NCBI RefSeq assembly: GCF_006265175.1
Contig: NZ_VDCQ01000002.1
Coordinates: 1 to 64,000 of the forward strand
Reading direction: 5' to 3'
Length of the DNA: 64,000 nt
DNA from: Paenibacillus hemerocallicola
GTDB taxonomy: Bacteria; Bacillota; Bacilli; Paenibacillales; NBRC-103111
The notes under the pieces are model-generated. The model worked only from the letters and a program-made list of their open reading frames with translations, searched no databases and was not told the DNA's origin. Shown piece by piece: positions 17,593-43,248 of this stretch. Position 1 is the first letter of the stretch. Each line of letters begins with the position of its first letter. A program made the position numbers and the translations under genes.

Positions 17593-17668
17593 ACTAAGCT
17601 TCTCCTTTCGCGTCCGGGCTTGAACGATCCCCGGACCGCCGTTCGAATATTCCGCGAGCTGGGCGAGA

Positions 17669-18901
17669 CTACTTGACCGAACCGACAGGGGCGTTCGCCT
17701 TGACCGCATCCATCTGCATCTCGGCGATGATTTCCGCCAGCAGGTCGGCCGTCCGGTACATTTCCTCGAGCGAATTGTAAGGGCCGCCGATTTCCAGCAA
17801 GATGCTGTTCGGAGACAACGACTGGTTGTATTCCGCGTTGCCGTTCGATGCTTTGCCGTACACGCCTTTTGAAATGCCGGGCATCTTGCTTTCGAGCTTC
17901 GAATGGATTTTGCTGGCGAACTCCGAGTTTTTCTCCCAGCCCGCATTTTTTTTGCCGACGACGAAGTACACCTGGGCGTAATCTTTGTCTCCGATGCGTA
18001 CCGTCGTTTTATCCCTGTTGAGCGAGTCACGGTGAATGTCGAAGATCATGCCGAGCTGTTTGTGCTGCGCCATCGCTTCCTTCACCGTTACCGCGGAGTA
18101 GGCGTATGATTTCGCGTAATTAAACGATTTCACGCTCGACGGATAATCGGGTGTCGACTGGAGGGCGGGAATGCCCAGCGCTTCGACCTTCTCCTTGAGC
18201 CTCTTGCCCACTAGCGTAACGTTCACATCCGCGTCGTATGCGAGATCCGGACTCGTAATCCCTTTCGATTTCAGCTCGGGAAGGAACGACTCCCGGTTGT
18301 GCGAATGGTAAATGAAGATTTGCGGTTCCTTGGATGCCGTGTCTTGCGCCGGAACGGCAGGTGTCGTGCCGGTTTGCGGCTGTTCCGGCGGCATGGCCGT
18401 CGCCGGCGGAGGCTGAATAGCGGCTTGGCTGTCGCTCGGTCGAAACGCATCCGGCGGAGGCGTAAAATCGGCCGGGTAATCGGTAGCCTGAGTCGCGTGT
18501 CCGGAATAGAGCAGCGCGCTTGTCTCGCTCCGCATGCCGGGCAATTCGCTGGCAAGCAAGCTCCTCGGATCGGCGGGATGAATACCGAGCATGTACCGGA
18601 CGAGAAACGACACCGTATTTTTGGGAGAAAAGGTGGACGTATTGATTTTTCCTTGGAGCTGCGGCAATTCCATCGCCAGCATGTCCATGAAAAACGAAAC
18701 GGAAAGAGAGGCGGCCGCGCCTTTCATCGACGTGGACGAGGCGGCGAACCATTTATGCTGCGCAAGACCCATCAGGCCGGTTGCGAACAAAAACAAAAGT
18801 GCGGCGATCGAAATAATGGCGAACAGCCGGCCCATGGAGCGAACGGCACGCAGCGTCCGGGTAATGGCGCTGACGTTCATCGTGGCGACAACCCATTTCA
18901 T
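17669..18901 (-). CDS. spoIIP: Stage II sporulation protein P (SpoIIP), copy 2
   Basis: 410-residue paralogue of the next gene with the same layout: a membrane segment at about residues 27-48, a proline-rich linker (about 155-195) and a SpoIIP domain with IFIYHSHNRESFLPEL, MIFDIHRDSLNRD, YFVVGKKN and SILLEIGGPYNSLEEMYRTA. All catalytic positions are intact, so both copies could be active. The ATG follows AGGGAGGG. Bacillus subtilis has a single spoIIP; here the tandem pair has diverged strongly outside the motifs, especially in the linker. Division of labour between mother-cell and septal stages is only speculation. Confidence 0.94.
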   Translation of the reverse strand: MKWVVATMNVSAITRTLRAVRSMGRLFAIISIAALLFLFATGLMGLAQHKWFAASSTSMKGAAASLSVSFFMDMLAMELPQLQGKINTSTFSPKNTVSFLVRYMLGIHPADPRSLLASELPGMRSETSALLYSGHATQATDYPADFTPPPDAFRPSDSQAAIQPPPATAMPPEQPQTGTTPAVPAQDTASKEPQIFIYHSHNRESFLPELKSKGITSPDLAYDADVNVTLVGKRLKEKVEALGIPALQSTPDYPSSVKSFNYAKSYAYSAVTVKEAMAQHKQLGMIFDIHRDSLNRDKTTVRIGDKDYAQVYFVVGKKNAGWEKNSEFASKIHSKLESKMPGISKGVYGKASNGNAEYNQSLSPNSILLEIGGPYNSLEEMYRTADLLAEIIAEMQMDAVKANAPVGSVK

Positions 18902-19198
18902 CGAAATCCCTCCCTGTTGTCTATCGAATCTATCTGTTACCAAATCTATGAAACGATATCGGCCGATAGAACGCCGCGAGACAAAAAAATACCCGCAGCC
19001 GTCAACCGCCGCTTCCGGGAATACCGGAACCGCGACCGCCGGCACTGGGCACAATGTGCATCTCGTCCGTGCTCTGCGCTATAAATCTCGTAACCTTGCA
19101 CTGTTGCATTGTAACGAGTAGGAGAGGGGAGGCCGTCGATACCGTAATGAGCCTGTTCGCTTGCACAGCGCTAGGCGGGAGAGGCCCAATCCGCTCCG

Positions 19199-28011: not shown

Positions 28012-29298
28012 TTAAAATTTCACCAAATCGTCGATACGAACGGCACCGCCGGTCTGCATCGAAATATTGCCCGCTACTCCCGTCAAAATCGAGATGGCGC
28101 CGTCTACGTGCGAAGCCGCTCTATTGAAGCGGTCCTCCTCGCGCTCGCCGAACAAATCGTTCAACAGAATCGGATCGCCGCCGCCGTGTCCCCCGGCCCG
28201 CTCTTCGATTTCGACCTCATAGGCGCGCTCGAACATCGGTTGGACGGTGAGCAGCTTTTGCTTCAGCGCACCCTCGTCTTCCTTTTTGCCGCCGGAATTG
28301 ACGTAGGCCCGTTCCACAACCTTCAGCTCGATGCGGCCCTTGCTGCCGTTAAACATGACGTTGAACCCTTCCCAAGGCAAGTACGCGTTAAGGGAATAAG
28401 TCAAGATCGCTTTGTTTTTGTAGCGGACCATTACGCCCATCGTGTCTTCGATGTTGATTCCGTCTCCGAACACGCTTTGGTCGCGCTGGTAGCCGTCATC
28501 CTTCTCCGCATCCAGATAAAGTGCCTTCATGTGCGCGTTCGCTTCCATATTCAGCGCGAACGGATCGCCTTTGGCGGCTTCGCTGCCGTGGGAACGCTGG
28601 TAAAACTTCGTCACGCCGCGACGTTCCGCATTTTCCCGGCCGTAGAACATGAGGCCTCCCATGGCAAATACCGTCTCCGGAGAAGTGCCCAGCCAGAAGT
28701 TGACCAGATCGAAATGGTGCGTCGATTTATGCACCAGCAGTCCTCCGCTATTGCGTTTGTCGCGGTGCCAGCGGCGGAAATAGTCCGCTCCGTGTAGCGT
28801 GTTGAGGGCCCATTCGAAATGAACCGAGTGAACGTCGCCGATCGTACCGTCCATAATGAGCTCGCGGATTTTCGTGTTGTGCGGCGCGTAACGGTAGTTG
28901 AAGGCTACCCGCAGATCGCGTCCGGTCCGTTTGACCGTGTCGATGATAAGCTGACATTTCTCCGCGTCGATCGTCATCGGCTTCTCCGTTACGACATCGC
29001 AGCCGAGCTCCATCGCGCGGATAATATACGTATGGTGAGTGCGGTCCATCGTAGTGACGATGACGGTGTCGGGTTTTTCCTGACGGATCATCTCGTCGAA
29101 TTCCTCGCAGCCGTACAGACGAACCTCGGGATGGTCGTATTTCTCTCTCAGCAGACGGTTCGAATATTCCAGACGGGTCCGGTTAATATCGCAGAAAGCG
29201 ACGAGCTCGCTTTTGTCGCGAAAATGTTTGGCCAGCGCGCCGTAGAAAAACTCGGCTCTTCCGCCTGTACCGACCAGGGCGAATTTTTTCCGTGTCAT
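28012..29298 (-). CDS. Gfo/Idh/MocA family oxidoreductase
   Basis: 428-residue NAD(P)-dependent dehydrogenase. The Rossmann motif is FALVGTGGRAEFF at the N-terminus, and the conserved EKP motif is VVTEKPMTID (about residue 98). A second signature, LLVHKSTHHFDLVNFWLG, contains the catalytic-region His-x3-D. Such proteins oxidise sugars, inositols or glycosides. The ATG at 29298 follows AAGGAG. The AraC gene is divergent, 170 bp away, and may regulate it. It is larger than the typical 340-residue member, with an expanded C-terminal domain. Confidence 0.93.
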   Translation of the reverse strand: MTRKKFALVGTGGRAEFFYGALAKHFRDKSELVAFCDINRTRLEYSNRLLREKYDHPEVRLYGCEEFDEMIRQEKPDTVIVTTMDRTHHTYIIRAMELGCDVVTEKPMTIDAEKCQLIIDTVKRTGRDLRVAFNYRYAPHNTKIRELIMDGTIGDVHSVHFEWALNTLHGADYFRRWHRDKRNSGGLLVHKSTHHFDLVNFWLGTSPETVFAMGGLMFYGRENAERRGVTKFYQRSHGSEAAKGDPFALNMEANAHMKALYLDAEKDDGYQRDQSVFGDGINIEDTMGVMVRYKNKAILTYSLNAYLPWEGFNVMFNGSKGRIELKVVERAYVNSGGKKEDEGALKQKLLTVQPMFERAYEVEIEERAGGHGGGDPILLNDLFGEREEDRFNRAASHVDGAISILTGVAGNISMQTGGAVRIDDLVKF

Positions 29299-29467
29299 GG
29301 ATGGCACTCCTTTAATAAAAGTAAAATACGCTTTCATTTTAAAGCAATATTTTCAGATTTTCTGCCTAATTATTGCTCATCTGCTGCTTTTTTTCGCATT
29401 TCTTGCTCTTTCCCCGCTTACGCAGGACGTCCTAGTATAGTACAATGCGGTATGGGGGGGCTGTACC

Positions 29468-30298
29468 GTGAAAGATCCGTTCTACATCCATCTGAGCAAA
29501 GTATCCGGCCATCATTCGATGCCTTCCAACCATTTTCACGAGCCATACGAAATTTATTATTTGCTGTCCGGCGAACGGAACTATTTCATCAAGGACAATA
29601 CGTACCGGATCGGCAAAGGCGATATCGTGTTCATCGACAAAAACGAGCTGCACAAAACCGGGGATGCCGGCGTTCCGAACCATGAGCGCATTCTGATCAA
29701 CTTCCACGAACGTTTCCTGCACAAGTTCGACGAGCCGCTCCTGTTCGAGCCGTTCCGTCGCAAAATACGCCGACTTCGGCTGAATCTGCCCGAGCGGGAA
29801 TGGATGGAGAGACTGCTGTTCGAGATGCTGCAAGAGGATAAGGAAGAGCTGCCCGGTCACTTCGCCTCGCTGCAAGCGAGACTGGTCACGCTGCTGCTAT
29901 GGTGCGGAAGAAGGCTGGATCGCCAGGAGCGCGAGCAAGCCCCGTACGAGCACGAGAGCCCGGCTCACAAAAAAATTTCCGAGATCGTCGAATTCATCAA
30001 CGACGCTTATGACGCGCCGCTATCGCTGGAATCGGTTGCCAAAACTCATTATGTAAGTCCGTTTCATTTGAGCCGGATGTTCAAGAGGGTGACGGGATTT
30101 TCGTTCGTGGAGTATGTCAATACCGTCAGGGTGAGGGAAGCGCAGCGGCTGTTGAAGGAGACCGAGTGGAAGGTAACCCGCATCTCGGAAGCGGTCGGTT
30201 ACGAGAATCTCGGACATTTCGGGCGCGTATTCAAGCAAATGACCAAAACAAACCCGCTTGACTACCGGAAGTCGGCCAAGCGGGCTGACGACAAATAA
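29468..30298 (+). CDS. AraC family transcriptional regulator
   Basis: 276-residue regulator. The N-terminal cupin has HFHEPYEIYYLLSGERNYFI, typical of sugar-sensing AraC proteins. The C-terminal double helix-turn-helix spans about residues 180-275 (LSLESVAKTHYVSPFHLSRM and SEAVGYENLGHFGRVFKQMT). The start is GTG after a G-rich stretch. It is divergent from the dehydrogenase gene and convergent with the beta-propeller gene. Its last codons contain an inverted repeat that forms the terminator of the convergent gene, and 89 bp of this end is duplicated downstream of gpr. Confidence 0.95.
   Translation: MKDPFYIHLSKVSGHHSMPSNHFHEPYEIYYLLSGERNYFIKDNTYRIGKGDIVFIDKNELHKTGDAGVPNHERILINFHERFLHKFDEPLLFEPFRRKIRRLRLNLPEREWMERLLFEMLQEDKEELPGHFASLQARLVTLLLWCGRRLDRQEREQAPYEHESPAHKKISEIVEFINDAYDAPLSLESVAKTHYVSPFHLSRMFKRVTGFSFVEYVNTVRVREAQRLLKETEWKVTRISEAVGYENLGHFGRVFKQMTKTNPLDYRKSAKRADDK
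30245..30284 (-). terminator. Terminator embedded in the 3' end of the AraC gene
   Basis: On the minus strand CCCGCTTGGCC and AGTCAAGCGGG form a hairpin (with GACT/AGTC inner pairing) followed by TTTGTTTT. It lies 20-60 bp after the stop of the convergent beta-propeller gene and is made of coding sequence for the AraC C-terminus. Confidence 0.75.
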
Positions 30299-30304
30299 GG
30301 ATCG

Positions 30305-31732
30305 TTATTGAAACCGGAACGAGAACAGCTCGGCGTCTCTCATCGTAATCTCCATAATAACCGGCTTGCCGGATAATGCAGACGGGCCGCCGCCTTCGAA
30401 AGGTACCGTTTTGTCCAGCTTGTCGCCGAACAGCTCGACCGAATTCAGCGTCCGGTCTTGCGAGATCAGCTTGATTTTCACATACCCTCTTGCAGAGGTA
30501 GCGAAGTTGATCGACAATCGGCTGCCTTCGTATATAAACGGCCGGGTCACGATAGTGCTTGGCGTATATGCGGCTCTATAGCTCACAAAGCCGTCGATTC
30601 TTATCGTATAACGCCTCAGCCGAGCCGGTTGCTGCGACCAATGCCCTTCCTTTGCGTACATCGAAAGCTCGTTCGGGGCGTAGGGCAAATCGTTTCCGGT
30701 CTCGATCATGCCGACGGCCGGAAAGCAATCGCCGTACACCCAGTTGTATGGATGCTCCGGCCCCGGCGTCATGAACGCCTCATCCCAGCGGTTCCACTTG
30801 CGCCCGTTGCGCGAGCTCATGAACAAGCAGTCCGTAATGGCGAGCCCGTACCGCGGATGGACGCCCATCCTTTTTTTACGGCTGTGCGCACCGGCAAAAT
30901 CGTCAAAGTTCGGAGTCCACTCTTTCTTTTCCACATAGCGGGACGGAAAGCCGGCTAACAGATGCGGCGCCCGGTAATACGGCTGCACGGCATTCGTATA
31001 GAGCGGGTAGTCCTCGCCATCGCCGAAATCCAGCCGTTCGGGAGTCGTCCACTCTTTAAAATCGGCCGATTCCAGCCACCGGATATCCCGAATGCCGGCG
31101 TTCCAATCATTGCCCGGTATATCGTGAAAATCGCGGATATAGCATCTGTACGTTTTCGCTACGGAGTCCCAGAAAGCAACGTTCAGCGTATCGAACTTGC
31201 CTTGATTCGTCATCCGCCACGCTTTTTGGAATTGAATGCCGTTCGCGCTCGTGAAGCACCATAAATACTTGTCATTCCAATCTATCGCGGTCCCTTTATA
31301 ACGCTCCTCATCGGGACAATCGGGGTTCGTATCCTTGAATACGAAAAAGTTGTCAAACCTGGCCGTATTCGAATCGAGAATAATATTGTTGCGCCGGGAC
31401 CCCTCAAATTCGCAAATGCCCAAATCCGGCTTGATCCAATCCTTGCCGTTCTTGCTCTCCGCATAACACACGACGATCGGACGCGGAACGTGCAGCGTCA
31501 CATCCGGGTCCAGCATTTCCCAACCGAGATAATACATCCGGAACAAGCCGTCGTCCTCCACGATGCAATGATAGTTGCAGCCGTCCCCTTCCCATGGAGA
31601 ATCGTGATGGATTACGACTTCCTTCGGCTGAAGCTTGTTCAGCTGCCGGGACGCGGTCGTCTTTCCTGTATCGATCAAATATTCGTCCCAGAACAGCTCG
31701 CGGCGGCTGCCGATCTTTATAATGTCCGACAT
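30305..31732 (-). CDS. Beta-propeller glycoside hydrolase-like protein (GH32/GH43 clan-like)
   Basis: 475-residue cytosolic protein without signal peptide. Repeated propeller-type strands are visible (GLFRMYYLGWEM, VVCYAESKNGKDWIKPDLG, ADFKEWTTPERLDF, CLFMSSRNGRKWNRWDEAF), like GH32/GH43/GH130-related proteins in which the strand pattern S-x-D/N-G-x-x-W recurs. The C-terminal 100 residues form a beta-sandwich-like tail. The catalytic acids cannot be assigned with confidence. The ATG at 31732 has GGGAGAG nine bases upstream. It is the last gene of a run starting with the binding proteins at 38.7 kb, so it likely processes the imported glycan. Confidence 0.7.
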   Translation of the reverse strand: MSDIIKIGSRRELFWDEYLIDTGKTTASRQLNKLQPKEVVIHHDSPWEGDGCNYHCIVEDDGLFRMYYLGWEMLDPDVTLHVPRPIVVCYAESKNGKDWIKPDLGICEFEGSRRNNIILDSNTARFDNFFVFKDTNPDCPDEERYKGTAIDWNDKYLWCFTSANGIQFQKAWRMTNQGKFDTLNVAFWDSVAKTYRCYIRDFHDIPGNDWNAGIRDIRWLESADFKEWTTPERLDFGDGEDYPLYTNAVQPYYRAPHLLAGFPSRYVEKKEWTPNFDDFAGAHSRKKRMGVHPRYGLAITDCLFMSSRNGRKWNRWDEAFMTPGPEHPYNWVYGDCFPAVGMIETGNDLPYAPNELSMYAKEGHWSQQPARLRRYTIRIDGFVSYRAAYTPSTIVTRPFIYEGSRLSINFATSARGYVKIKLISQDRTLNSVELFGDKLDKTVPFEGGGPSALSGKPVIMEITMRDAELFSFRFQ

Positions 31733-31780
31733 TCTAATATCTCTCCCATTCATTTGAAATAAGCGGCGGTCGATCCGGCT

Positions 31781-32800
31781 TCACTTTCCTCGTACCGACT
31801 GTATTGATCCATCGTTCCGATGAGATCGAATCAAGGCATCCGCTACATACAGCGGATAGATGCCATCCTCCAGCGTACTGACAGGTTCGGCGCCGGATCG
31901 CAAAATGTCGACGATGTGTTCAACTGCTTTTTGAATATTGCTTGTGCGGGCAAGCAAGTTTTTTTCTTCCCGTTTCAGCGTCAGATGGTATCCTTGAATC
32001 GACGCATGCCCGGCTGCGGCATAGAAGCGGATTTCATCGCCTGTCCGGAGCAACTCAATCTTGCCCTTATCAAAAAACAAATCCATCTCGAACATGAGGT
32101 AATTCCGGTCGTCAAATGCCTCCGCATACCCGGGAACGCCATTCGTAAGCGTAAACTGAAAGGAGAACGTCCAGTCGCCCTTCTTATCCATGTTCGTCGG
32201 GACTTGTCTAAGGACCTGAACGCGATCGATCTCTCCGGCTACATACCGAACGAGATCAAATAAGTGCGAGCCGATGTTGTGGACACCTCTCGTATACCGC
32301 AAATGGATGTTGGTCAGCTTTCCGAGCTCTTCGGACCGAACGGCTTGCCGAATTTGGCGGACCCCTTCGCTCCATCTTCGCGATAGATTGACTACGACGG
32401 TTCGCCGGTGGCGCTTCACGAGCGCCGCGATCTCCTCCGCTTCTTGAAGGCTCGTCGCGACCGGTTTTTCCAGAAACAGGACAGAGGCCGCCGATCGGGA
32501 CATCACCGTCCGAAGAAGTTCGAAACGAACGTGCTCCGGGGTGCAAATGCTTATGACATCGAGCCGCTGCTCATCCAGCATCGCGCCCAAATCCATGTAA
32601 TATTTCGTTTCCGGAGCTACAAGGGCAAGCTGGTCGCCTTGCTCCTGCCGAACGCCCACAGCGGCCGCCAATTCCATGTCAGGGTTCATCCGGTAAGCCA
32701 GCGTATGGCTTTGCGGCAACTGTTTCCGCGGGATATCCGCCCTTAGTCCGATAAAGCCCAGTCCGATTACGGCCGCTCGATATTTGTTCATGGCTGCCAT
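31781..32800 (-). CDS. Gfo/Idh/MocA family oxidoreductase
   Basis: About 339-residue NAD(P)-dependent sugar dehydrogenase. The nucleotide-binding motif is AAVIGLGFIGLRADIP and the EKP motif is VLFLEKPVATSLQEAEEI. A C-terminal domain with GVHNIGSHLFDLVRYVAG carries the catalytic-region histidine. The start is ATG at 32800 behind GGGAG; a second in-frame ATG lies at 32791. It begins just after a truncated isomerase gene whose stop overlaps this start region, suggesting a deletion brought the two together. It belongs to the same operon as the propeller and beta-helix genes. Confidence 0.92.
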   Translation of the reverse strand: MAAMNKYRAAVIGLGFIGLRADIPRKQLPQSHTLAYRMNPDMELAAAVGVRQEQGDQLALVAPETKYYMDLGAMLDEQRLDVISICTPEHVRFELLRTVMSRSAASVLFLEKPVATSLQEAEEIAALVKRHRRTVVVNLSRRWSEGVRQIRQAVRSEELGKLTNIHLRYTRGVHNIGSHLFDLVRYVAGEIDRVQVLRQVPTNMDKKGDWTFSFQFTLTNGVPGYAEAFDDRNYLMFEMDLFFDKGKIELLRTGDEIRFYAAAGHASIQGYHLTLKREEKNLLARTSNIQKAVEHIVDILRSGAEPVSTLEDGIYPLYVADALIRSHRNDGSIQSVRGK

Positions 32801-32802
32801 TG

Positions 32803-33045
32803 TCAGTGTCTCCCGTTCAGCTTTACTGTGTCGCCGCATAAAGCAGAGAAATCCAGACCAAGCTCGCGAATGTAAGCCTTTAATTCATTTCTCGCAGACG
32901 GGGTTAGATTCGCCGGATCCGTCTCGCCGCTGACCGCATACAGCTGCACGCCGTCCGCCCCTACCGCCTTCGCCTTCTTCAAGCCTTCGCTCACTCCGAC
33001 CCGGAAGCTGTCCACGATAACGCCGATTTTGTTCGTTAATGCCAT
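32803..33045 (-). pseudogene. Truncated sugar phosphate isomerase/epimerase (N-terminal fragment)
   Basis: 80 residues matching the first strands of a xylose-isomerase-like TIM barrel: IGVIVDSFRVGVSEGLKKA, GADGVQLYAVSGE, and LGLDFSALCGD. Family members are usually 260-300 residues; the frame here ends at LNGRH and a stop right before the dehydrogenase start. The barrel cannot form, so it is a remnant, although it keeps GGAGG and an intact start. Confidence 0.8.
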
Positions 33046-33076
33046 TTGCAAGTTTCCTCCATTCATCTGGAACGCA

Positions 33077-35392
33077 TTACGGCTCAATAAGTACCCGGAA
33101 TTCAGCGATGACCAATGTCACGATCTCTGTTGTCTTCACTACCCGTACATACCGGTACGGCGTCGGATCGTCGACAAGACTGCTCCAGGTCTGCTTGTAG
33201 CCGACTGAGAAATTGCCTTGTCTGCCGATCACAGTGTAAGTCGAGAATGTAGGGTCATTGGAAGCGAGCACGTCGAAGTTTCTTCTCTCGTACACGTGGT
33301 CGACGTTGTCTTGCCGGTTGACGAGCTCAAGCTTGGCGATCGGATGGGCGCTGCCCAGATCGACTTGCCACCAAGGCGGAGACGTATACGGCGGCTTCGA
33401 TGCCCATGCGGTCGACACATTGCCATCCGCCGCTTTCGAGGGGTGCATGCTGGCATCCCAGTAAGAGGAGGCGGTGACGGTTTTGTTCAAAGCCGCATTG
33501 ATGTAGCTCGGCTCCGGCACGGTAGGCTGTTCGGCGATAATGTCCTTGATATCGAGGTATCCCGCTTCGATCCCGGCGCCGGCAATTATGGTTTGCGCCG
33601 CGAGCGGCCAACTCGAGGCGGAACTGTACGTATTGCCGGAAACCGTGTTGCCGGCGTTGATGCTGGATTGCGGGATATCCGTATAATTGTCGCGAATCGT
33701 ATTCAGCGTTGCGCCCGGCGCAATTGCCGTTACATAGGTCCAGTACAGGGTGCCGTCGTTGTGCAGCACGTTATGATGCACATCGAAGCCTTGGGTGCCG
33801 TTGTCCAGATAAACAAGGGCGAGATCGTAGTACTGGTCGGATATATAATTGTCGCTGATGGTCGAGTTCGGCTGGTTGCCGAGCGCGTAAATCCCTCCGC
33901 CGTCGCGGAGCGTGTGCATGTAGCGATGAATGCGATTGTAGCGGATGACGTTGTTTTGTGCCGTCGTGACGTCCGTCGACCAGCCCCAGCCGACGGTAAT
34001 GCCGGTATACGGCAAATCGTACAGCTCATTATGCTCGATGACCGTATGATCGGTATACCCGACGAAAATACCGGTTGCCCCGTGGTATTCCGCTCCCGCT
34101 CGGACGATATAGTTGTTTTGGACCGAATTGTTTTTTACGATTTTGCGGGAGTCCGCCGGATTGCGATCTTCGCCCGTTATGAAGCCTACCTTAATACCGG
34201 TAGCCGAGACGTCTTCGATTACATTGCCGATGATCGTATTGTCCTGGCTGCCGTACTCCAGACTGATTGCCGTGCCTCCGAGATGACGGAATACGTTGCG
34301 CTCGAGCCGGATCGATTTCGCCGCCCGGAAGTCTGCCGCTGCGGGAGGCTGACCGACGCCGCCGCCCGGAGGGACGTAGCTGGCCGCCTGGTTGGCGGGA
34401 AACCCGCCATTGCCGCTCGGGTACATCCACGTCGTGTACAGGAATGTAAGGCCGTGAATTTGCACGTTGTGCAGAAGCGTGTCGAGCGTACCGGTACCTT
34501 TGATCAACGTCTCGGCCGCAGAGCCTGCCACAGCTTCCGAGGCTGTCATCGATTCCCCCGAACGCGGCTTGTAATATAGCGTACCGGCATTGCCATCCAC
34601 CGCTCCGGTCAAATCCAGATACCATTCGCCCTCCTCGTCCAGCAGCTCGTAAGCGTTCTCGACCCAGGTCGGATACGCGGCCGTCGTTGCCGGAGCGAGC
34701 AACGACCAGCACGGCTCCTGCATGGTCAAGGCGCTTCCGCTAATCGAGGCGACCGGGCAGCGGAGACTTTTCCATTGATAGAAGATGACCATCTCGATAT
34801 CGCCGATATTGTCCCAGCCGGCCATTCCCGCGAAGCTTCCGGTCGAAGGCAACGTGTAGCCCGCGGACGTTCTGGCGAACCCCGATGGGAACGTCTCCCC
34901 GCGCGCCCGGTCCGCCCGAATGCCGTTCACATACAACTGACGGGTCTGGAGGGAACCGACATCGGCCTTGTAAATATTGTTCATGCCGTCATGCAACGTC
35001 CAGGCGGTGCCTGGAATCGATTGTCCGCCGCTCAAGATCGGAGTTTCCTCGGGATAAGCGCGGTAAATAACGTTGTATCCGTTCGTTCCCGAATCATGAA
35101 TGGTGCTGCTTTCGGTTAATTCGAAAGGGGAAGAAAGGGAGTACGTCCCTCCACGAAGCAGCACGGTAATATCTCCCGTCATGTTCGCGTTCATCGTCCG
35201 TACTTTATCCCGGGCCCCTTCCAGTGAGCAAGGCGACATTTCCGAGCATAAGCTGCCGCCGCCGTCCGGAGAAGCGTATATATACGTCCCCGTCATGTAA
35301 GCTACCTTGTCGGTAACGGCAAAGGACAGCAGCAATCCAAGAGCCATAGTCAAGAGCATTGGTACCGCAATCCGTTTACGAAGTACATTCAT
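33077..35392 (-). CDS. Secreted right-handed beta-helix protein with a C-terminal discoidin (F5/8 type C) domain
   Basis: 771-residue exported protein. The signal segment is about residues 7-33. The body (about 40-600) has the parallel beta-helix pattern with repeated N-x-I/V strands (NTIIGNVIEDVSATGIKVGF, HTVIEHNELYDLPYTGITVG, NVIRYNRIHRYMHTLRDGGG), as in polysaccharide lyases and glycosidases of the pectate-lyase superfamily. The last 140 residues form a discoidin-type carbohydrate-binding domain (NKTVTASSYWDASMHPSKAA, WWQVDLGSAHPIAKLELVNR). It probably acts on plant or microbial polysaccharide outside the cell. The exact activity is unknown. Confidence 0.9.
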   Translation of the reverse strand: MNVLRKRIAVPMLLTMALGLLLSFAVTDKVAYMTGTYIYASPDGGGSLCSEMSPCSLEGARDKVRTMNANMTGDITVLLRGGTYSLSSPFELTESSTIHDSGTNGYNVIYRAYPEETPILSGGQSIPGTAWTLHDGMNNIYKADVGSLQTRQLYVNGIRADRARGETFPSGFARTSAGYTLPSTGSFAGMAGWDNIGDIEMVIFYQWKSLRCPVASISGSALTMQEPCWSLLAPATTAAYPTWVENAYELLDEEGEWYLDLTGAVDGNAGTLYYKPRSGESMTASEAVAGSAAETLIKGTGTLDTLLHNVQIHGLTFLYTTWMYPSGNGGFPANQAASYVPPGGGVGQPPAAADFRAAKSIRLERNVFRHLGGTAISLEYGSQDNTIIGNVIEDVSATGIKVGFITGEDRNPADSRKIVKNNSVQNNYIVRAGAEYHGATGIFVGYTDHTVIEHNELYDLPYTGITVGWGWSTDVTTAQNNVIRYNRIHRYMHTLRDGGGIYALGNQPNSTISDNYISDQYYDLALVYLDNGTQGFDVHHNVLHNDGTLYWTYVTAIAPGATLNTIRDNYTDIPQSSINAGNTVSGNTYSSASSWPLAAQTIIAGAGIEAGYLDIKDIIAEQPTVPEPSYINAALNKTVTASSYWDASMHPSKAADGNVSTAWASKPPYTSPPWWQVDLGSAHPIAKLELVNRQDNVDHVYERRNFDVLASNDPTFSTYTVIGRQGNFSVGYKQTWSSLVDDPTPYRYVRVVKTTEIVTLVIAEFRVLIEP

Positions 35393-35450
35393 CGCAGTTC
35401 CTCCTTCATCTTCTCAATCTTTTCATCGCTATGAAACGAACGATTGCGAG

Positions 35451-35675
35451 TTATTCTGAGGTCTGCAGTTCATGATGAAGACCGACAATCAGTCGCAGCG
35501 GCAGGTAATGCTCCGCCGGACCGATTTCACCATTATTATGAATTTGTAAGATGGTCATACCTCCAAAGCCCCAATTACAGACCGGAGTCGGCTCCGGCCC
35601 TGTATCACAGTCCGCATAACCGATCGTGGCGTTAAGGCTGGGAGTAGGAAATCGGTTCGTTACATAGATAAAGCC
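35451..35675 (-). pseudogene. C-terminal remnant of an unidentified gene
   Basis: Within a 306-bp gap the minus strand encodes 74 clearly protein-like codons without a start: FPTPSLNATIGYADCDTG, PTPVCNWGFGGMTILQIHNN and HYLPLRLIVGLHHELQTSE before TAA. An in-frame TGA precedes it. It is not part of the neighbouring binding-protein gene. I do not recognise the family. Confidence 0.6.
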
Positions 35676-35698
35676 TCAACTATTCGTGCAGCCGGCTC

Positions 35699-37270
35699 TC
35701 ACTGGTAGCTCTTCCGGCCGGCTGCAGCCGCGTACTGCCTGTTGCGATCGTCGATCATCTGCCGGCCGCCCATGTCGAGCCAGCGCCCCACGATGCCGTC
35801 CCAGTTGTCGAAGGGGATTTCGCCGTTGTACACTCTGACCTTCTGCTCGTTGAAATAAGCGTTCAGGTCGTTCAGCTTCGGGAACGACTCCCATTTGGTC
35901 ATGTCATAAAACACGCCGGAGTCGATAGACTCGAACCGGGGCAACCGGTTCATCTGCTCCCTCTTCAGGTTGTACTCCCCGGATACCCAGGCGTTGATCG
36001 GCCATACCGGCTTGCCGGGCCAGTTGATGAATGCCGTCTTGTATTTGGCGTAATATTTCGCTTTGGACAGGTCGGTTTTGTCCTCCGCGATAAATTCGAC
36101 CATGCCGCCCGGGGCCATCGTGTAATTGTCGCCCTCGATCCCGAACCAGGCCAGCATATTCCCTTCGTAAGTGCCCTGATAGTCGAAATATTTCATGACC
36201 GTTTCAGGGTCGGCATTTTTCTTGAATATGACCCATACCGAATAAGCGATAGGGGCCGCAGGCAATCGATTGATGCCGTGTGCTCCTTCCAGCATGAAAG
36301 GGACATAGCTATAATCAGGCACCGTCTTCCTGAGTGCCTCGCCGGCGTTCAGGATCGTGCCAGAATACGTGGCGGCTACCGAGCCTGCCCTGTTACCTGC
36401 AATCAGCTCCTGCTGCTTGGTCGCCGTCGACAGGAGCATATCCTCCCACAAGTATCCTTTGTTGTTCCAGTCAACGAGCCGAGCCAGAAACTCTTTGTAG
36501 CCGGGGTGAAGCTCGGGGGGCTTCAGTCTGCCGTCGGCGTCTTGCCACCAGTTAAACGCTTGCGGAAGGAAGCTCGGACCGACAACGCTTTCCAGCATGT
36601 TGAACGCGCCCCCCGAAGCGACGGCTAACGGAACCGTATCGGGCATTCCGTTCCCGTCCGGATCGCGTTCCTTGAACGCTTTCAGCACATGCTCGAATTC
36701 GTCTACCGTCTTCGGGATCGAAAGCTGCAGCTTTGCGAGCCAGTCCGCCCTGATTTGCAGTGCATTGAGCGTAAGGAGACCGTTCTCGATCGGGATGCCG
36801 AGTATGTTCCCTTCATAGGTCGCTCTCTGGAACGCTTCGGGAACTACGTTTTTCCTCAAATTCAGACCATATTTGTCGAGCAGGCCGTTCAGCGGTAAAA
36901 TAAGGCCTTCGTTAAACTCCTGCACGGCTTCGGATATAGACAATTCGGCGAAATCCAACTGCTCGCCGGAGGAGAGCATCATATTCCGTTTCGACCTGCA
37001 CGGTCCTCCGGAGCCTCCATCCGAGAAGACGATGCGGACATCGGCGCCCGTTTGTTCCCGTATCCGGTCGTGCACCCGCCTCTCCTCGGCCGTTTTCCGG
37101 TCGAAAGACGGATTGCAGTTCAGCCCGACTATTTGGATCCCCGGATTGTGCGGTTGGCCGTTCTTCGATCCGCCCTGTTCCGGCTCGGGCGATTCGCAGG
37201 CGGACGCTGCAATTGCGAGGACCGGGAACAAAGCGGCAAGCGCGGATCTGATCCATAGGTGCAAACTCAT
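35699..37270 (-). CDS. Extracellular solute-binding lipoprotein (large, LplA-like)
   Basis: 523-residue family 1 binding protein. The lipobox AIAASAC places the lipidated cysteine at residue 25. The long form with PLNGLLDKYGLNLRKNVV, GNGMPDTVPLAV and the C-terminal GGRQMIDDRNRQYAAAAG is typical of the Paenibacillus LplA/YtcQ type that pairs with LplB/LplC permeases. No permease genes are adjacent. It follows another binding-protein gene by 60 bp. Start: ATG after GAGGAGG. Confidence 0.92.
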   Translation of the reverse strand: MSLHLWIRSALAALFPVLAIAASACESPEPEQGGSKNGQPHNPGIQIVGLNCNPSFDRKTAEERRVHDRIREQTGADVRIVFSDGGSGGPCRSKRNMMLSSGEQLDFAELSISEAVQEFNEGLILPLNGLLDKYGLNLRKNVVPEAFQRATYEGNILGIPIENGLLTLNALQIRADWLAKLQLSIPKTVDEFEHVLKAFKERDPDGNGMPDTVPLAVASGGAFNMLESVVGPSFLPQAFNWWQDADGRLKPPELHPGYKEFLARLVDWNNKGYLWEDMLLSTATKQQELIAGNRAGSVAATYSGTILNAGEALRKTVPDYSYVPFMLEGAHGINRLPAAPIAYSVWVIFKKNADPETVMKYFDYQGTYEGNMLAWFGIEGDNYTMAPGGMVEFIAEDKTDLSKAKYYAKYKTAFINWPGKPVWPINAWVSGEYNLKREQMNRLPRFESIDSGVFYDMTKWESFPKLNDLNAYFNEQKVRVYNGEIPFDNWDGIVGRWLDMGGRQMIDDRNRQYAAAAGRKSYQ

Positions 37271-37329
37271 CGTCCCAAGCCTCCTCTACTCCCGAGATGC
37301 CTCGACAAGCAAGCGTCAAGTGTCTGTTT

Positions 37330-38673
37330 CTACTTTGCTTTAAGCTCCTGAAGCTTCTTCGCCGCGTTTTCTTCCGATAGCCGCAATGCGGTATTCAGAT
37401 CCATCTCGCCTTTCATGACCTGATTCATGTTGGCCACATACAGACTGGAGATCGGTATTTCATATACGCTCTTATACGGGACCTCCGCCATTTTATAATA
37501 AAAATAGGCGCCCCAATTTTTATCCTTATATTTGGTATCTTGCCCGAATACTTTCCTTACGTCCAAGTTTTTCAAGACCGGCATGAAGCCTTTCCCGGCG
37601 ATTTCCGTCTGGTATTCGTCCGAAACGAGATGCTTCAGCATTTCCATCGCGGCATCCGCGGTATTTTTGGTTTTCGCCATCCGCGTAATGCCGAAATATT
37701 GGGTGTATGGCTGCCCCCCGACGCCCGGCAAATCCTGGAACGGAGGCATGGCTACCCAGTCCCAGTTAAATTTGCTCAATTGATCGTCGCGGCTGTTGGC
37801 CGCGAAAGCGGTAATGCCGCCGAGCATCGCCACCTGTTGATCCTTGAAAAAGCCATCGAGCACATCGTGCTTCTTCAAGTAATCCTGAACTCCGGGCACC
37901 TCGGCCGGGGCGATGAGCAAGGTCTGGTAAAATTTCTTCCATCGCTCGTCCCGGTTGATCGTGGGCGTGCCCGATTTCTCATCGACAAGCGGAATGGAAA
38001 GCGGATTCATATATAGCATGTAATTCGTAAACGGCGCGTATCCGATATAGCTTTTGTCACCCTCGGTTCTCGTCAGCTTGCGCGACAGATCGAAGATTTC
38101 CCCCCAGGTTATCCCGTTCTTCGGATAAGGGACGCCGAATTTATCGAGAATATCTTTGTTGTACATGATGCCGATCGAATCGGTAACGACGGGAAGCGCG
38201 TAAATGCCGTAGCTTGAAGCTCTGACACCGCTAATGACCGACGGGTCGAACCGGTTGAGATCGACCTTGTGCTGCTTGATCAGATCGGACATGTCGAATT
38301 GCAAATTGTAGGAGATGAATTCGTTCTCGAAGTAGCCGACATTGGCGAAATAAACATCGTAATGCGTACCTGTGGCGAGCATGCCGGCGACGTCCATCCC
38401 TTTTCCCGTGTTTTGAATGTACTTGATCGTATAATCGGGAAATTTCTTTCTCAGGCTGTTGCCGTACCGATTGTCGAATTCGGCCGGCGTCATGCCATTT
38501 TGGGCATAAAAAACAACTTCGACGGGCTCCTTGTTTTTTCCTTCAACCGCTTTGCCCTTGTCCTCACTTCCGTTGTCGGTCTTGTCGCCGCCGGTTGCCG
38601 CGCCGCTGCCGCAGCCGGCAAGCAGTGCAATGGCCAGCAGCGATAACGGTATCGTTCTGAATCGTCCCCTCAT
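37330..38673 (-). CDS. Extracellular solute-binding lipoprotein
   Basis: 447-residue family 1 binding protein with lipobox ALLAGCG (cysteine at residue 21) and a charged tether. Recognisable segments are SIGIMYNKDILDKFGVPYPK and a C-terminal coupling helix (LRLSEENAAKKLQELKAK). It is closely similar in layout to the binding protein of the nan operon at 51.7 kb, suggesting related substrates. ATG after GGGAGG. It is the first gene of the run down to 30.3 kb and has no adjacent permease. Confidence 0.92.
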   Translation of the reverse strand: MRGRFRTIPLSLLAIALLAGCGSGAATGGDKTDNGSEDKGKAVEGKNKEPVEVVFYAQNGMTPAEFDNRYGNSLRKKFPDYTIKYIQNTGKGMDVAGMLATGTHYDVYFANVGYFENEFISYNLQFDMSDLIKQHKVDLNRFDPSVISGVRASSYGIYALPVVTDSIGIMYNKDILDKFGVPYPKNGITWGEIFDLSRKLTRTEGDKSYIGYAPFTNYMLYMNPLSIPLVDEKSGTPTINRDERWKKFYQTLLIAPAEVPGVQDYLKKHDVLDGFFKDQQVAMLGGITAFAANSRDDQLSKFNWDWVAMPPFQDLPGVGGQPYTQYFGITRMAKTKNTADAAMEMLKHLVSDEYQTEIAGKGFMPVLKNLDVRKVFGQDTKYKDKNWGAYFYYKMAEVPYKSVYEIPISSLYVANMNQVMKGEMDLNTALRLSEENAAKKLQELKAK

Positions 38674-38929
38674 GAAACAACCTCCCTATTTTCATCATTC
38701 TCTTCGATTCCGGCCCCGGACGCCGGAACATCCTCAACCTACTCCAACCGGTGCCCGCCGTTCAATCACAATATATTAATATCGTTGAATTGAGCCGTTT
38801 CCGGGACCCCGTACAACGAGTTGAATATTGTAATACAACGTTAAGAATAACCATCCGGGAAAACCGCCCGGACGGTCCTCTGATATGCTAACCCAAACGC
38901 TCCGGCCGCTGCCCACAGTCGTGATTAGA

Positions 38930-39180
38930 CTTGGCGGTAACAACACGACTTCAAAGGCGGCCCGAGTGTGATTTTGGCGAGCTTCTTGCCAAATTCACAT
39001 CGGGTGTGATTTGGGTGAGCTTCTTGCCAAATCCACATCGGGTGTGATTTGGGTGAGCTACCCGGTGTGATTTTTGGTGAGCTTCTTGCCAATCCACACC
39101 GAAACTTTCCGCTTCAAAACCCATTCCCTTGGATCACTTACATGCTTCCTTCCACTTTATTCAGCTTTGCAGGTCAAACC
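38930..39180. repeat. Intergenic module with tandem hairpin repeats, copy A of the left flank
   Basis: Begins with ACTTCAAAGGCGGCCC and ends with CCATTCCCTTGG and TTCCTTCCACTTTATTC, both recognisable at 59.1-59.2 kb. Between them are three full and one partial copies of a unit of about 38 bp, each able to pair TGTGATTTGG with CCAAATCCACA. No coding potential is seen. Confidence 0.75.
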
Positions 39181-39207
39181 TATATACTTGACTGACCTCG
39201 ACCCACT

Positions 39208-39395
39208 AAATGGAAAACCTGCAGCAAATGTAACAAGAATAGAGCTAAAAGCGTGCCATAGCGGGAAAACCTCCAGCTATATCGCCATACTAGGGCCCAA
39301 AAAAGCAATTTCGATAAAATGTACTGCAGGTTTTCCAGTTATTTATCCAAAAAAGCGGATAAATCGAAAAATAACGACATGTTTTCCAGTTACAG
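39208..39395. repeat. Palindrome island 3: four GGAAAACC-core sites
   Basis: Four copies of a GGAAAACCTGCAG-type core, two on each strand, at about 39208, 39257, 39318 and 39370, with arms such as ATAGC, GCTAT and GTTATTT. From 39396 to 39611 nothing coding is seen; GAACTTAAGCATTCTGAATC at 39483 is shared with 59.68 kb. Confidence 0.75.
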
Positions 39396-39611
39396 GAGCG
39401 GAAACGTTCGAATAAGCCGGATCACGGCCCGGTACATTTATGCACGTCGAAAGGGTAACCATTATGCTTTAGTACTGTAAAGAACTTAAGCATTCTGAAT
39501 CGTAAAATAGCCCCAAAAAATGGAGCCTTCGCTTCGCAGCATCATTCCAAATCCTTTGCGGGGAGCCCCCGTCATCCACATATATTGGCTTCGCGTCATT
39601 TCCAAAACAAC

Positions 39612-39638
39612 AAAAAAAGCCGACATCTGTCGGTCGGC
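39612..39638 (-). terminator. Terminator of the membrane-bound AraC gene
   Basis: Minus-strand stem GCCGAC / GTCGGC with an eight-base loop, followed by TTTTTTTG, about 20 bp after the stop. Confidence 0.85.
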
Positions 39639-39656
39639 GGCGTACTTGCGCATCGT

Positions 39657-41702
39657 TCAGCTGTCGGCGGTTTGCGGCTCCTGCTCCCGCTTGCGGCTGA
39701 AGAGGAGCTCCCTGTATTCGGAAGCCGTAATGCCGGTGTACTGCTTGAACACTTTAGCGAAATAGCTGTTGCTGTTGAAGCCGGAACGGGTGCCGATGTC
39801 GGCGATTTTCGTCCGGGTGTCGGACAGCAGCCGCTTCGCTTCCTCGATGCGGTATTCGTTCAAATATTCGACCGGTGTCCGGTTATATCTCTTCTTGCAC
39901 ACGGTAATCAGATGCTGCTTCGTAATGCCGAGATGCTCGGCCATCTCGTCCAGCGAGAAATTAACCGTATAGTGCTCGGCGACATAATCCCGGATTTTGC
40001 CGGCATAATCTTTCGTCTCCTCGGCATAGTCCCGGTAGCTGTGGAATTTGGCGAATACGAACTGCTTCACGGCGGTAACGTTCATAATACCTTTGTCCGT
40101 AATAAGCCGGTTCAGCTCGTTCAGGAACGTAAGACTGTTCTGACCGAACAGCCGGAGCAGAAGCGAGACGACTTGATAGAAGTTGAGATTGTACTCTACG
40201 ACGCTCAACTGCTCGGAGAACAGGACGTTCAGTGTCTCCGTGAAACTCCGCTCGTTCTGCTGCCGGATCGCCAGCTCCAGTTCCTCGATGGCAGGAGCTT
40301 TTAGAGGGGCCGCGTAGTCCATCGGCAGCTTGTTGTAGCAGTACAACCGGCTGTCCGTCGTATAAATGCGGCCGATATTGTAGGCATACATAGCCTCGAT
40401 ATACGATTTATGAATGTTCTCAAGAGAGTGGATGCCGCCGATGCTGATCACGGTCGACTCCAACTGCTTGTCGTCGAGTGCGAGCAGCAGCTCGGTTAAG
40501 AACCGGCTTGCATCCCCGTGCTCCAATTGGAACAACGCTAAGCAGTCCCCGTTCGGTTCCCGGAACAGCTCTGCCCGGAACGATGCGGTCAAGCGATTTT
40601 CCAGACTTTGCATAAGCGTCGCCGTTGCTTCTTCGGACTTCTCGCCGTCATTTTGCGGCGTAGGGGTAATGATTGCAACGACGCGGCGGGACGACATGAC
40701 GTGTATCAGCCTATCCATGTACGGACTTATGGGAGTCTCCCCCATAATCAAGCGGCGCAGCAGCGATTTTCTCAACAGCTCTTCGCTCTCCGCGACCCGG
40801 GAGACGATGCTGCGGAACGGCTTATACAACTCGCGCGCGCCGATCACGATGAACACGGCCATGAGGGCGATGACAGCGAAGACGACGGCCAACACTTTGT
40901 TTTTGAAGACGGTAACGTCCTTGTACAGCAGTTCCGTATTGACTGCTCCGACTAATTCCCAATTGAAGGCGTCGAGCTTATGCCGATTGATCCGGATGCT
41001 CGAATCGTCACGCATAATACCCGACATCGGTTTGCCTATGTATTCCTTATCCCGATGGTACATGATCGTTCCGCCAGCATCGGTCAAGTAGTAGTTGTAC
41101 AGCTCGGCGCCCACGTTCAGCTCGCTCAAGAAGGAATTATATATTTTATCCAGATCGACATTGAATATAAAATAATTCGGTTCTCTCTGCTGCCCCGGAA
41201 GCTTCTGGATGATGGAAACGTATTGCCTGTCTTGTCCGAAATGTCCGTTCTTGAGCTCGAACTGGTACAAGGGGAGCTTTGGGGCTTCCGTGACAATCCA
41301 GGGGATGCTGCTCCGTTCAGGATTCCGTTCTATCCCATAGTTCGATATGAGCAGCGACCGGTCATCGCCGTTATACAGCATGTATTCCGCAATAAATGGA
41401 TTGGCGTACAGAAGCTTGTTGAGTTCAGACCATGCTTTCCACTGATCCGTCGCCGTCTGCAAGTTGGCGAAACGCGCATCGGCTGCCGTTGCGCTCGAGA
41501 AGTCTATAATTTGCTGCAACGTCCGTTCCATAAGCGTGCCGGTGCGGATCAGCTCGGTCTCATTTTTGGAATCGACCAGTTGGACCGTTTGCTTCATGAA
41601 CAGATTCGTATTGTAAGCGCTTGATAAAAGAGCGGGTATAACGGACACCACGACGAGCACGATGGCCACCCGGTACAAGTAAGAGCGGGCATCTCGTTTC
41701 AA
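39657..41702 (-). CDS. Membrane-anchored AraC family regulator
   Basis: 681-residue one-component regulator common in Paenibacillus. Membrane segments lie at about residues 11-30 and 275-300 and enclose an extracellular sensor domain (about 35-270, Cache-like). A linker of about 230 residues follows, and the C-terminal double helix-turn-helix (about 575-675) has SLDEMAEHLGITKQHLITVC and IADIGTRSGFNSNSYFAKVF. It probably senses an external glycan or cell-surface cue and controls the binding-protein run at 38.7 kb. A GntR-like operator sequence lies about 160 bp upstream. Confidence 0.93.
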   Translation of the reverse strand: MKRDARSYLYRVAIVLVVVSVIPALLSSAYNTNLFMKQTVQLVDSKNETELIRTGTLMERTLQQIIDFSSATAADARFANLQTATDQWKAWSELNKLLYANPFIAEYMLYNGDDRSLLISNYGIERNPERSSIPWIVTEAPKLPLYQFELKNGHFGQDRQYVSIIQKLPGQQREPNYFIFNVDLDKIYNSFLSELNVGAELYNYYLTDAGGTIMYHRDKEYIGKPMSGIMRDDSSIRINRHKLDAFNWELVGAVNTELLYKDVTVFKNKVLAVVFAVIALMAVFIVIGARELYKPFRSIVSRVAESEELLRKSLLRRLIMGETPISPYMDRLIHVMSSRRVVAIITPTPQNDGEKSEEATATLMQSLENRLTASFRAELFREPNGDCLALFQLEHGDASRFLTELLLALDDKQLESTVISIGGIHSLENIHKSYIEAMYAYNIGRIYTTDSRLYCYNKLPMDYAAPLKAPAIEELELAIRQQNERSFTETLNVLFSEQLSVVEYNLNFYQVVSLLLRLFGQNSLTFLNELNRLITDKGIMNVTAVKQFVFAKFHSYRDYAEETKDYAGKIRDYVAEHYTVNFSLDEMAEHLGITKQHLITVCKKRYNRTPVEYLNEYRIEEAKRLLSDTRTKIADIGTRSGFNSNSYFAKVFKQYTGITASEYRELLFSRKREQEPQTADS

Positions 41703-41757
41703 CGCCGATTCCCCCTTTTAAACGAATATACGATCCAGCCCGTTACTCCAACAATAC

Positions 41758-41790
41758 AAAAGAGGAGCCGGAAATAACCACGCTCCTCTA
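41758..41790 (-). terminator. Hairpin upstream of the membrane-bound AraC gene
   Basis: AGAGGAGC and GCTCCTCT pair across a loop of about 17 bases, followed on the minus strand by TTTTGT. It may act as a second stop for transcription coming from gpr. Confidence 0.5.
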
Positions 41791-41858
41791 CAATTGCATC
41801 CGTTCATCCTATTTAGGAGCGATCTCCGGCAGCCTTCGGCACTACAGAAAATCGCTTA

Positions 41859-41880
41859 ATGTGGTCATACCATAGTATAG
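41859..41880 (-). promoter_or_regulatory. Possible FadR/GntR-type operator
   Basis: On the minus strand TACTATGGTATGACC matches TACTATGGTATTACC of the gntR operator at 58167 at 14 of 15 positions, and it contains TGGTCATACCA, a perfect fit to the FadR-type TGGT-N3-ACCA. It lies about 160 bp upstream of the membrane-bound AraC gene. Confidence 0.45.
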
Positions 41881-41941
41881 ATTATTCACCTTTAGCATAC
41901 AGGTTTTACCCGACATCGTCAATAAGCTATTCGTAACAATC

Positions 41942-42030
41942 TACGAGAATCTCGGGCATTTCTCGCGCGTATTCAAGCAATTGACCAAAACAAACCCGCT
42001 TGACTAAGGAAAGTCGGCCAAGCGGGCTGA
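41942..42030. repeat. 89-bp duplicate of the AraC gene 3' end
   Basis: Ungapped match to 30200-30288 with seven mismatches by my count. The copy has a stop codon where the AraC gene has Tyr, and it ends 25 bp before the gpr stop. Three mismatches lie in the hairpin loop while the hairpin arms are unchanged. Confidence 0.9.
41987..42026 (-). terminator. Terminator of gpr (in the duplicated AraC segment)
   Basis: The duplicated segment keeps the hairpin (CCCGCTTGGCC / AAGCGGG with GACT/AGTC) and TTTGTTTT on the minus strand, about 30 bp after the gpr stop. Confidence 0.75.
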
Positions 42031-42055: not shown

Positions 42056-43060
42056 TCAATGCGTGTAAGCGCCCACGTTGTCCTGATCGATCGCCTCATG
42101 CAGCGCGGCGTTCAAGCCGCTGGCGATAATGTTGGCCATGTCCTCGATAAACTGGTCGATATCCTTCGGAGTCACGAGCAAATTGTGGCCGACCGGATCG
42201 AGCACTTCCTTGACCAGCTGAAGCCGCTCGTTCTCCTCCATGCTTTCCAGCATGCCGAATATTTGATTCGTATTGCTCGTCTGGTTTTTGAAATGGTTCA
42301 GCATCATGTCCATCGTGCTGTTGACGATCGTGGACGCATAGACGACGGTCGGAACGCCGATGGCGATTACGGGCACGTGAAGGAATTCCTTCGTGAGCCC
42401 TTTTCTTTTGTTGCCGACGCCCGAACCGGGGTGAATGCCCGTATCGGCGATTTGAATCGTCGTATTGACCCGTTCCAGCGCTCTGGAAGCGAGCGCGTCG
42501 ATGGCGATGACCAGGTCCGGTCTGGATTTCTCGACGATGCCCTGCACGATTTCGCTCGTCTCTATTCCTGTCGTGCCCAGCACGCCCGGCGCCACGGCGC
42601 TTACCGGGCGGTAACCCGGGCTTACTTGCTCCGGCATCAATTCGAAGTAGTGCCGTGTCACCATGACGTTCTCGACAACGAGAGGACCGAGCGCGTCCGG
42701 AGTCACATTGTAATTTCCCAGTCCGATAATGAGTACTCTGGCGTCCTTGCCGATGCCGATTCTTTGCAGAAACGAAGCGAATTCTTGGGCAAGTCTGGTC
42801 GCCACCCGATCCTGCAGGTCGGAATCCTTCTCCCTGAGTCGGGGGACTTCGATCGTGACATAATGTCCGGGCAGCTTGCCTATCGCCCTCGCTCCCTCCT
42901 CACTCGCGATATCCATTCTCGTCACGATCATATCCCCGTCATCTTCCGATGTCTCGGTATGTACACCCGGTATCGTATCCCCCATCCGGTTGGACGCAAT
43001 TTCCTTCGCTTCCAATGCCAGATCGGTCCGCACCGAATATGGACTTAAATCCAACTCCAT
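42056..43060 (-). CDS. gpr: Germination protease GPR
   Basis: 334-residue aspartic-type protease that degrades small acid-soluble proteins during spore germination. It is made as a zymogen in the forespore; the N-terminal propeptide with the self-cleavage region is MELDLSPYSVRTDLALEA. Family blocks include VLIIGLGNYNVTPDALGP, VVENVMVTRHYFEL, PDLVIAIDALASR, IQIADTGIHPGSGVGNKR and VPTVVYAS. The ATG at 43060 is preceded by AAAGGAGAG; the longer frame is rejected. In Bacillus spoIIP follows immediately; here it is about 23 kb away. A sigma-G-like promoter is visible upstream. Confidence 0.98.
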   Translation of the reverse strand: MELDLSPYSVRTDLALEAKEIASNRMGDTIPGVHTETSEDDGDMIVTRMDIASEEGARAIGKLPGHYVTIEVPRLREKDSDLQDRVATRLAQEFASFLQRIGIGKDARVLIIGLGNYNVTPDALGPLVVENVMVTRHYFELMPEQVSPGYRPVSAVAPGVLGTTGIETSEIVQGIVEKSRPDLVIAIDALASRALERVNTTIQIADTGIHPGSGVGNKRKGLTKEFLHVPVIAIGVPTVVYASTIVNSTMDMMLNHFKNQTSNTNQIFGMLESMEENERLQLVKEVLDPVGHNLLVTPKDIDQFIEDMANIIASGLNAALHEAIDQDNVGAYTH

Positions 43061-43091
43061 TTCATGACTCTCCTTTCCGTTACGGCTGCTA

Positions 43092-43122
43092 TAGTTTGTG
43101 AGCAATACGAACCGTTTATTCC
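43092..43122 (-). promoter_or_regulatory. Candidate sigma-G promoter of gpr
   Basis: Minus-strand GGAATA (43117-43122) and CAAACTA (43092-43098) with an 18-base spacer, close to the sigma-G consensus TGAATA and CATACTA. Forespore control of gpr is known in Bacillus. Confidence 0.5.
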
Positions 43123-43125
43123 AGA

Positions 43126-43154
43126 TTGCATTTTCGCTTGTCCCATGGTAAAAT
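43126..43154 (+). promoter_or_regulatory. Promoter of rpsT
   Basis: -35 TTGCAT (43126-43131) and -10 TAAAAT (43149-43154), spacer 17. It is divergent from and directly adjacent to the gpr promoter. Confidence 0.65.
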
Positions 43155-43248
43155 GTATAAAGTTGTCGACAGACCTGACATACTTTGATCGGTTGTCCTG
43201 GACATAGTCGCAAGCACGCTTTTCTTTTTTTTAAGGAGGTGAACGATC

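Follow-up and report, generated by a model that had tools for sequence, protein, structure and literature searches.

A putative terminator in the probable araC 3' end stranded behind gpr by an operon insertion in Paenibacillus hemerocallicola

Introduction

Paenibacillus has operons of carbohydrate-uptake type that move horizontally. Termination sites within the coding sequence of a neighboring gene are described as frequent in bacteria (PMC7154746). For the Bacillus cereus group, greater conservation is described for terminators that serve both of two convergent genes, along with terminator evolution through compensatory changes in the stem (PMC5381666). Among islands that integrate into gene 3' ends, one that uses a protein-coding gene is PAISt, with its site at the 3' end of bacA (PMC4057263). 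A literature search on gpr, spoIIP and terminators, judged by titles and abstracts, found nothing directly relevant.

The locus described here lies in a stretch of 64,000 nt of Paenibacillus hemerocallicola (contig NZ_VDCQ01000002.1, positions 1 to 64,000), referred to below as the window. An 89-nt segment at 41942-42030, behind the germination protease gene gpr, repeats the 3' end of an araC gene at 30.2 kb. With good confidence, this segment can be regarded as a stranded araC 3' end, bearing a terminator and left behind when an 11.6-kb operon inserted at the araC–gpr junction.

The locus resembles the shared or overlapping terminators of convergent genes, bidirectional or embedded, in having a hairpin and a T tract at a tail-to-tail junction. 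Unlike those, the hairpin here sits wholly inside the codons of the convergent gene, has its T tract in one direction only and appears to have outlived the displacement of its host gene. As with islands integrating at 3' ends, the target gene is intact on one side and a partial 3' copy forms a direct repeat on the other. Nevertheless, the inserted cassette carries no integrase among its identified genes, which are metabolic and regulatory only, and the repeat, probably about 105 bp long, is 8% diverged over 89 nt. A regulator, solute-binding proteins and a Gfo/Idh oxidoreductase travel together and occupy unrelated loci in relatives, as in the carbohydrate-uptake-type operons; the difference is that in this insertion a gene end bearing a terminator became duplicated at the borders. 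The parts are of known kinds and no new type of element is involved; the interest lies in the insertion history.

Gene order at the locus

The features of the locus, from gpr to the gene beyond araC, are as follows.

42056..43213, minus strand: gpr, germination protease (Peptidase_A25, TIGR01441); the listed reading frame may start too early
41942..42030, minus strand: scar behind gpr left by the 3' end of the ancestral araC, putative gpr terminator (alignment and folding)
about 42029-41995, minus strand: hairpin of the scar, with T tail TTTGTTTT from about 41994 downwards
41894..41922, minus strand: promoter-like site of the cassette, TTGACG-17-TATGCT
30305..41924, minus strand: inserted operon cassette, from the -35 box (about 41922) to the last stop codon (30305)
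39657..41702, minus strand: 681-aa AraC/GGDEF_2-type regulator, first gene of the cassette
37330..38673, minus strand: extracellular solute-binding protein 1
35699..37270, minus strand: extracellular solute-binding protein 2
33077..35392, minus strand: right-handed beta-helix/F5_F8 type C protein
31781..32839, minus strand: Gfo/Idh/MocA oxidoreductase of the cassette
30305..31753, minus strand: 482-aa protein, unmatched in Pfam and NCBIfam, final gene of the cassette
30200..30288, plus strand: coding 3' end of the intact araC; its minus strand is the likely terminator of the cassette operon
29468..30298, plus strand: AraC-family regulator of 276 aa (cupin and HTH_18; Pfam, synteny)
28012..29337, minus strand: Gfo/Idh/MocA oxidoreductase divergent from araC, in the ancestral gpr–araC–gfo order

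At most of the Paenibacillus loci examined, no more than about 200-400 bp separate spoIIP from the preceding gpr. The preliminary description had taken the segment behind gpr as the edge of a single inserted block of about 23 kb between gpr and spoIIP. The segment is indeed an edge, that of the 11.6-kb cassette, but the block as a whole is layered. Within the genus, araC, the adjacent Gfo/Idh gene and the genes for 388-aa and 291-aa proteins on the spoIIP side are older residents of the locus. At this locus, the LacI-ABC genes (LacI, solute-binding protein and permease) at 23.6-27.9 kb were found in the window and P. mesophilus alone; the relatives without the cassette at 30.3-41.9 kb lack these genes here too. 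The residents are older than these two sets of genes, so the 23 kb did not enter as a single insert. As a separate observation, spoIIP occurs as two tandem copies in the window (16321-19054, minus strand), an arrangement also seen in P. flagellatus, P. mesophilus and P. oceani.

The repeat and its origin

The segments 30200-30288 and 41942-42030 align without gaps and are identical at 82 of 89 positions, the seven mismatches falling at segment positions 15, 22, 23, 40, 66, 67 and 69. A genome-wide search of the 9.65-Mb assembly found no copies but these two, the next best match being 17 nt long (E = 0.24). For the 18-mer AAACAAACCCGCTTGACT, 0.04 occurrences are expected in the window and two are present. 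The copy at 30.2 kb encodes the C-terminus of the 276-aa AraC protein as the in-frame end of 29468-30298, ending ...YENLGHFGRVFKQMTKTNPLDYRKSAKRADDK. In the copy at 42.0 kb this frame gives YENLGHFSRVFKQLTKTNPLD and is broken by a stop. Mismatches 66, 67 and 69 lie in the loop of a hairpin whose arms and T tail are identical between the copies. On all of these points, namely the ungapped match, the coding role of one copy, the broken frame of the other and the changes confined to the loop within the hairpin, the preliminary description was borne out by the alignment.

Several other origins for the pair were rejected. A dispersed repeat or a family of terminators resembling uptake signals was ruled out by the presence of just two genome copies, an assembly artefact by the same arrangement in the separate P. 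mesophilus assembly, and a tRNA-type attachment site by the lack of any tRNA in the window. The region from 29.0 to 43.4 kb gave no match to Rfam or known RNA families.

The locus was compared within the genus with P. mesophilus, P. flagellatus, P. ginsengarvi and P. oceani. In the last three, an intact araC orthologue (77-82% amino-acid identity) is convergent with gpr, the same divergent Gfo/Idh gene adjoins araC, and the gpr–araC locus is free of the cassette. The araC stop codon lies 15 bp from that of gpr in P. flagellatus; P. ginsengarvi has a spacing of 31 bp and P. oceani one of about 380 bp. Among the genomes compared, only the present one and P. mesophilus carry the cassette between gpr and araC. 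Because relatives without the cassette have an intact araC end behind gpr, 41942-42030 is read as the araC 3' end at its old place, the body of the gene having been displaced by 12 kb through the insertion. The segment has the marks of a pseudogene remnant: homology to araC, a broken frame and the orthologous position of the intact gene of relatives. The duplicated stretch is probably slightly longer than 89 nt, about 105 bp, since the P. mesophilus scar resembles araC to about its stop codon.

Hairpin and termination

On the minus strand, both copies fold (-21.8 and -22.4 kcal/mol) into a hairpin followed by the tail TTTGTTTT, the arrangement of an intrinsic terminator. On the araC strand the hairpin is followed by ...GCGGGCTGACGACAAATAAGG, which has no T tract, and the element is thus not of the bidirectional kind. 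The codons for TNPL(D/E)YRKS(A/V)KR form the hairpin and T tail on the opposite strand in four species in which the structure is strong and araC abuts or once abutted gpr: the present one, P. mesophilus, P. flagellatus and P. ginsengarvi (KTNPL in all four). Synonymous shuffling gave equally stable structures with a T tail in 0, 0, 0 and 2 of 1,500 shuffles in these species, in a test designed after the hairpin had been seen and with four strong cases that are related species. A separate run on the present genome gave none as good in 5,000. The hairpin is thus more stable than expected from codon choice.

The P. oceani araC has a largely conserved protein sequence and lacks the hairpin and T tract; another hairpin lies between its stop codon and gpr. 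In seven araC orthologues from other genera the embedded hairpin is weak or absent. One stem pair is G–C in the present genome and A–T in P. mesophilus. The scar site was not listed by a terminator scan, probably because the loops it allowed were at most 8 nt.

The embedded hairpin with TTTGTTTT was probably the gpr terminator before the insertion, and the scar most likely still acts as such in vivo. The proposal in the preliminary description that the segment is the gpr terminator is plausible. The following course of events is suggested. Originally, araC would have ended convergently right behind gpr, its last codons doubling on the opposite strand as the intrinsic terminator of gpr. A horizontally moving 11.6-kb operon of sugar-uptake type would then have entered the araC–gpr junction, duplicating about 105 bp of the araC 3' end. 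The proximal copy would have stayed behind gpr, losing its reading frame and keeping the hairpin and T tract, while the distal copy would complete an intact araC and supply a terminator to the inserted operon. Duplication at the borders would thus have given a terminator to both the upstream gene and the incoming operon, and a terminator inside the codons of a convergent gene appears to have stayed with its client gene after its host gene was displaced.

Fate of the scar

The preliminary description further held that the copy behind gpr is preserved. When seven substitutions were placed at random, 458 of 3,000 sets (15%) left an equally good terminator, and the conserved arms were rejected as proof of selection for this genome alone. 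Preservation is better supported by P. mesophilus, in which the scar has shrunk to about 52 nt, essentially the hairpin and T tract (-23.3 kcal/mol).

Farther downstream, at about 41795-41761 within 41755-41795 on the minus strand, the sequence GAGGAGC...GCTCCTC, then TTTTGTATT, forms a second hairpin of terminator type. It follows the promoter-like site of the cassette and is in the leader of the gene for the 681-aa regulator. As a backup for gpr termination it might allow loss of the first hairpin to be tolerated. Sequence related to it precedes the regulator gene in P. mesophilus and P. oceani, and not in P. ginsengarvi, so the hairpin is possibly a leader attenuator. It has no Rfam match.

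These observations bear on the reading that the scar is a neutral relic for which too little time has passed, with gpr transcripts ending elsewhere or at the hairpin near 41761. The 15% of random sets that keep as good a terminator and the second hairpin with its T tract downstream would both suit it. Nevertheless, P. mesophilus deleted the rest of the scar and retained the hairpin and T tract, and in the relatives a strong hairpin is confined to those with araC abutting gpr. A neutral relic is accordingly thought unlikely, and selection to keep the scar as a terminator behind gpr remains the preferred account.

Entry of the cassette

In both the window and P. mesophilus the cassette comprises the 681-aa regulator, the two solute-binding proteins and the Gfo/Idh oxidoreductase. 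The window copy has in addition the beta-helix protein and the 482-aa protein. The beta-helix gene is missing from the cassette copies of P. mesophilus, P. oceani and P. ginsengarvi, and of the 482-aa gene P. mesophilus retains only about 67 nt, from the 3' end. In P. oceani and P. ginsengarvi the cassette is present at unrelated loci. Two minor features of its sequence may be added. The 482-aa protein belongs to a multi-copy family in large Paenibacillaceae genomes, with up to eight matches per genome. Between the first solute-binding gene and the regulator, at 38963-39038 of the window, a 38-bp unit occurs twice in tandem (89% identical), in a stretch poorly conserved in P. mesophilus.

Homology to the P. 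ginsengarvi cassette stops just upstream of the -35 box (41922) and at the last stop codon (30305). The P. ginsengarvi cassette has its own terminator-like hairpin after a remnant of the 482-aa gene. The inserted copy in the window lacks one and ends 6 bp from the araC stop codon, so the araC 3' end now probably terminates the cassette operon as well.

Direct repeats lie at both borders of the cassette, one of them completing araC, as in islands that enter by an integrase. Pfam searches of its six proteins found no integrase, transposase or recombinase, and the cassette core matched no plasmid or phage. Translocation of the cassette within the genome from a locus like that of P. ginsengarvi (kdp–uvrD) or P. 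oceani was also rejected: those homologues of the flanking genes that were tested lie on other contigs here.

At fourfold-degenerate sites, the cassette genes of the window and P. mesophilus are 80-88% identical; on either side of the cassette, gpr, araC and gfo428, the Gfo/Idh gene of the ancestral order, reach 60-61%. Against P. oceani the values are 73-78% for the cassette and 49-58% for the flanks. The cassette is far less diverged than its flanks, so it has most likely passed between these species since their divergence. The low divergence of the cassette across three species also points to horizontal exchange without recognizable mobility genes.

The insertions in the window and in P. 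mesophilus have identical junctions. A 51-column comparison of the scar/araC pairs (30200-30288 with 41942-42030 in the window; L047:11194-11246 with L047:18542-18631 in P. mesophilus) gave three informative sites, all three of which join scar and araC within a genome and none scar with scar; two of the three are partners in one stem pair, so that there may be just two independent events. Gene conversion between the two repeats, homologous transfer of the cassette core from one species to another and separate entry by single crossover at the 3' end of araC are candidate explanations.

The last of these would involve separate integrations, in the two lineages, of a circle bearing the araC 3' end, the repeat of about 105 bp being an att-like stretch of homology that every integration would restore. 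As a proposal about how the cassette entered, it does not conflict with a stranded araC end as the outcome. The agreement within each genome at the three sites, the greater identity of the cassette core than of the flanks and the shared junctions are all in its favor. Nevertheless, the sites are only three, two of them from one stem pair, gene conversion or homologous transfer of the cassette core fits the same data, and no circle, integrase, plasmid or phage carrier was found; separate integrations are considered quite unlikely. A more general form of the idea, held to be distinctly improbable, is that a terminator-bearing gene 3' end could be a reusable docking site at which a mobile operon without mobility genes enters by homologous single crossover. 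If so, each entry would duplicate the terminator, closing off both the upstream gene and the operon transcriptionally.

In the preliminary description, the araC 3' end was copied from 30.2 kb and became a new terminator behind gpr. This would explain the two copies and the non-coding state of the one behind gpr but is contradicted by the intact araC end behind gpr in three cassette-less relatives, within 31 bp in two of them, and is very improbable. In those two, P. flagellatus and P. ginsengarvi, the segment itself was found in that position, the outcome that the description had named as counting against it. With araC instead placed originally behind gpr, the case shows that a repeat read from one genome can be interpreted backwards without relatives.
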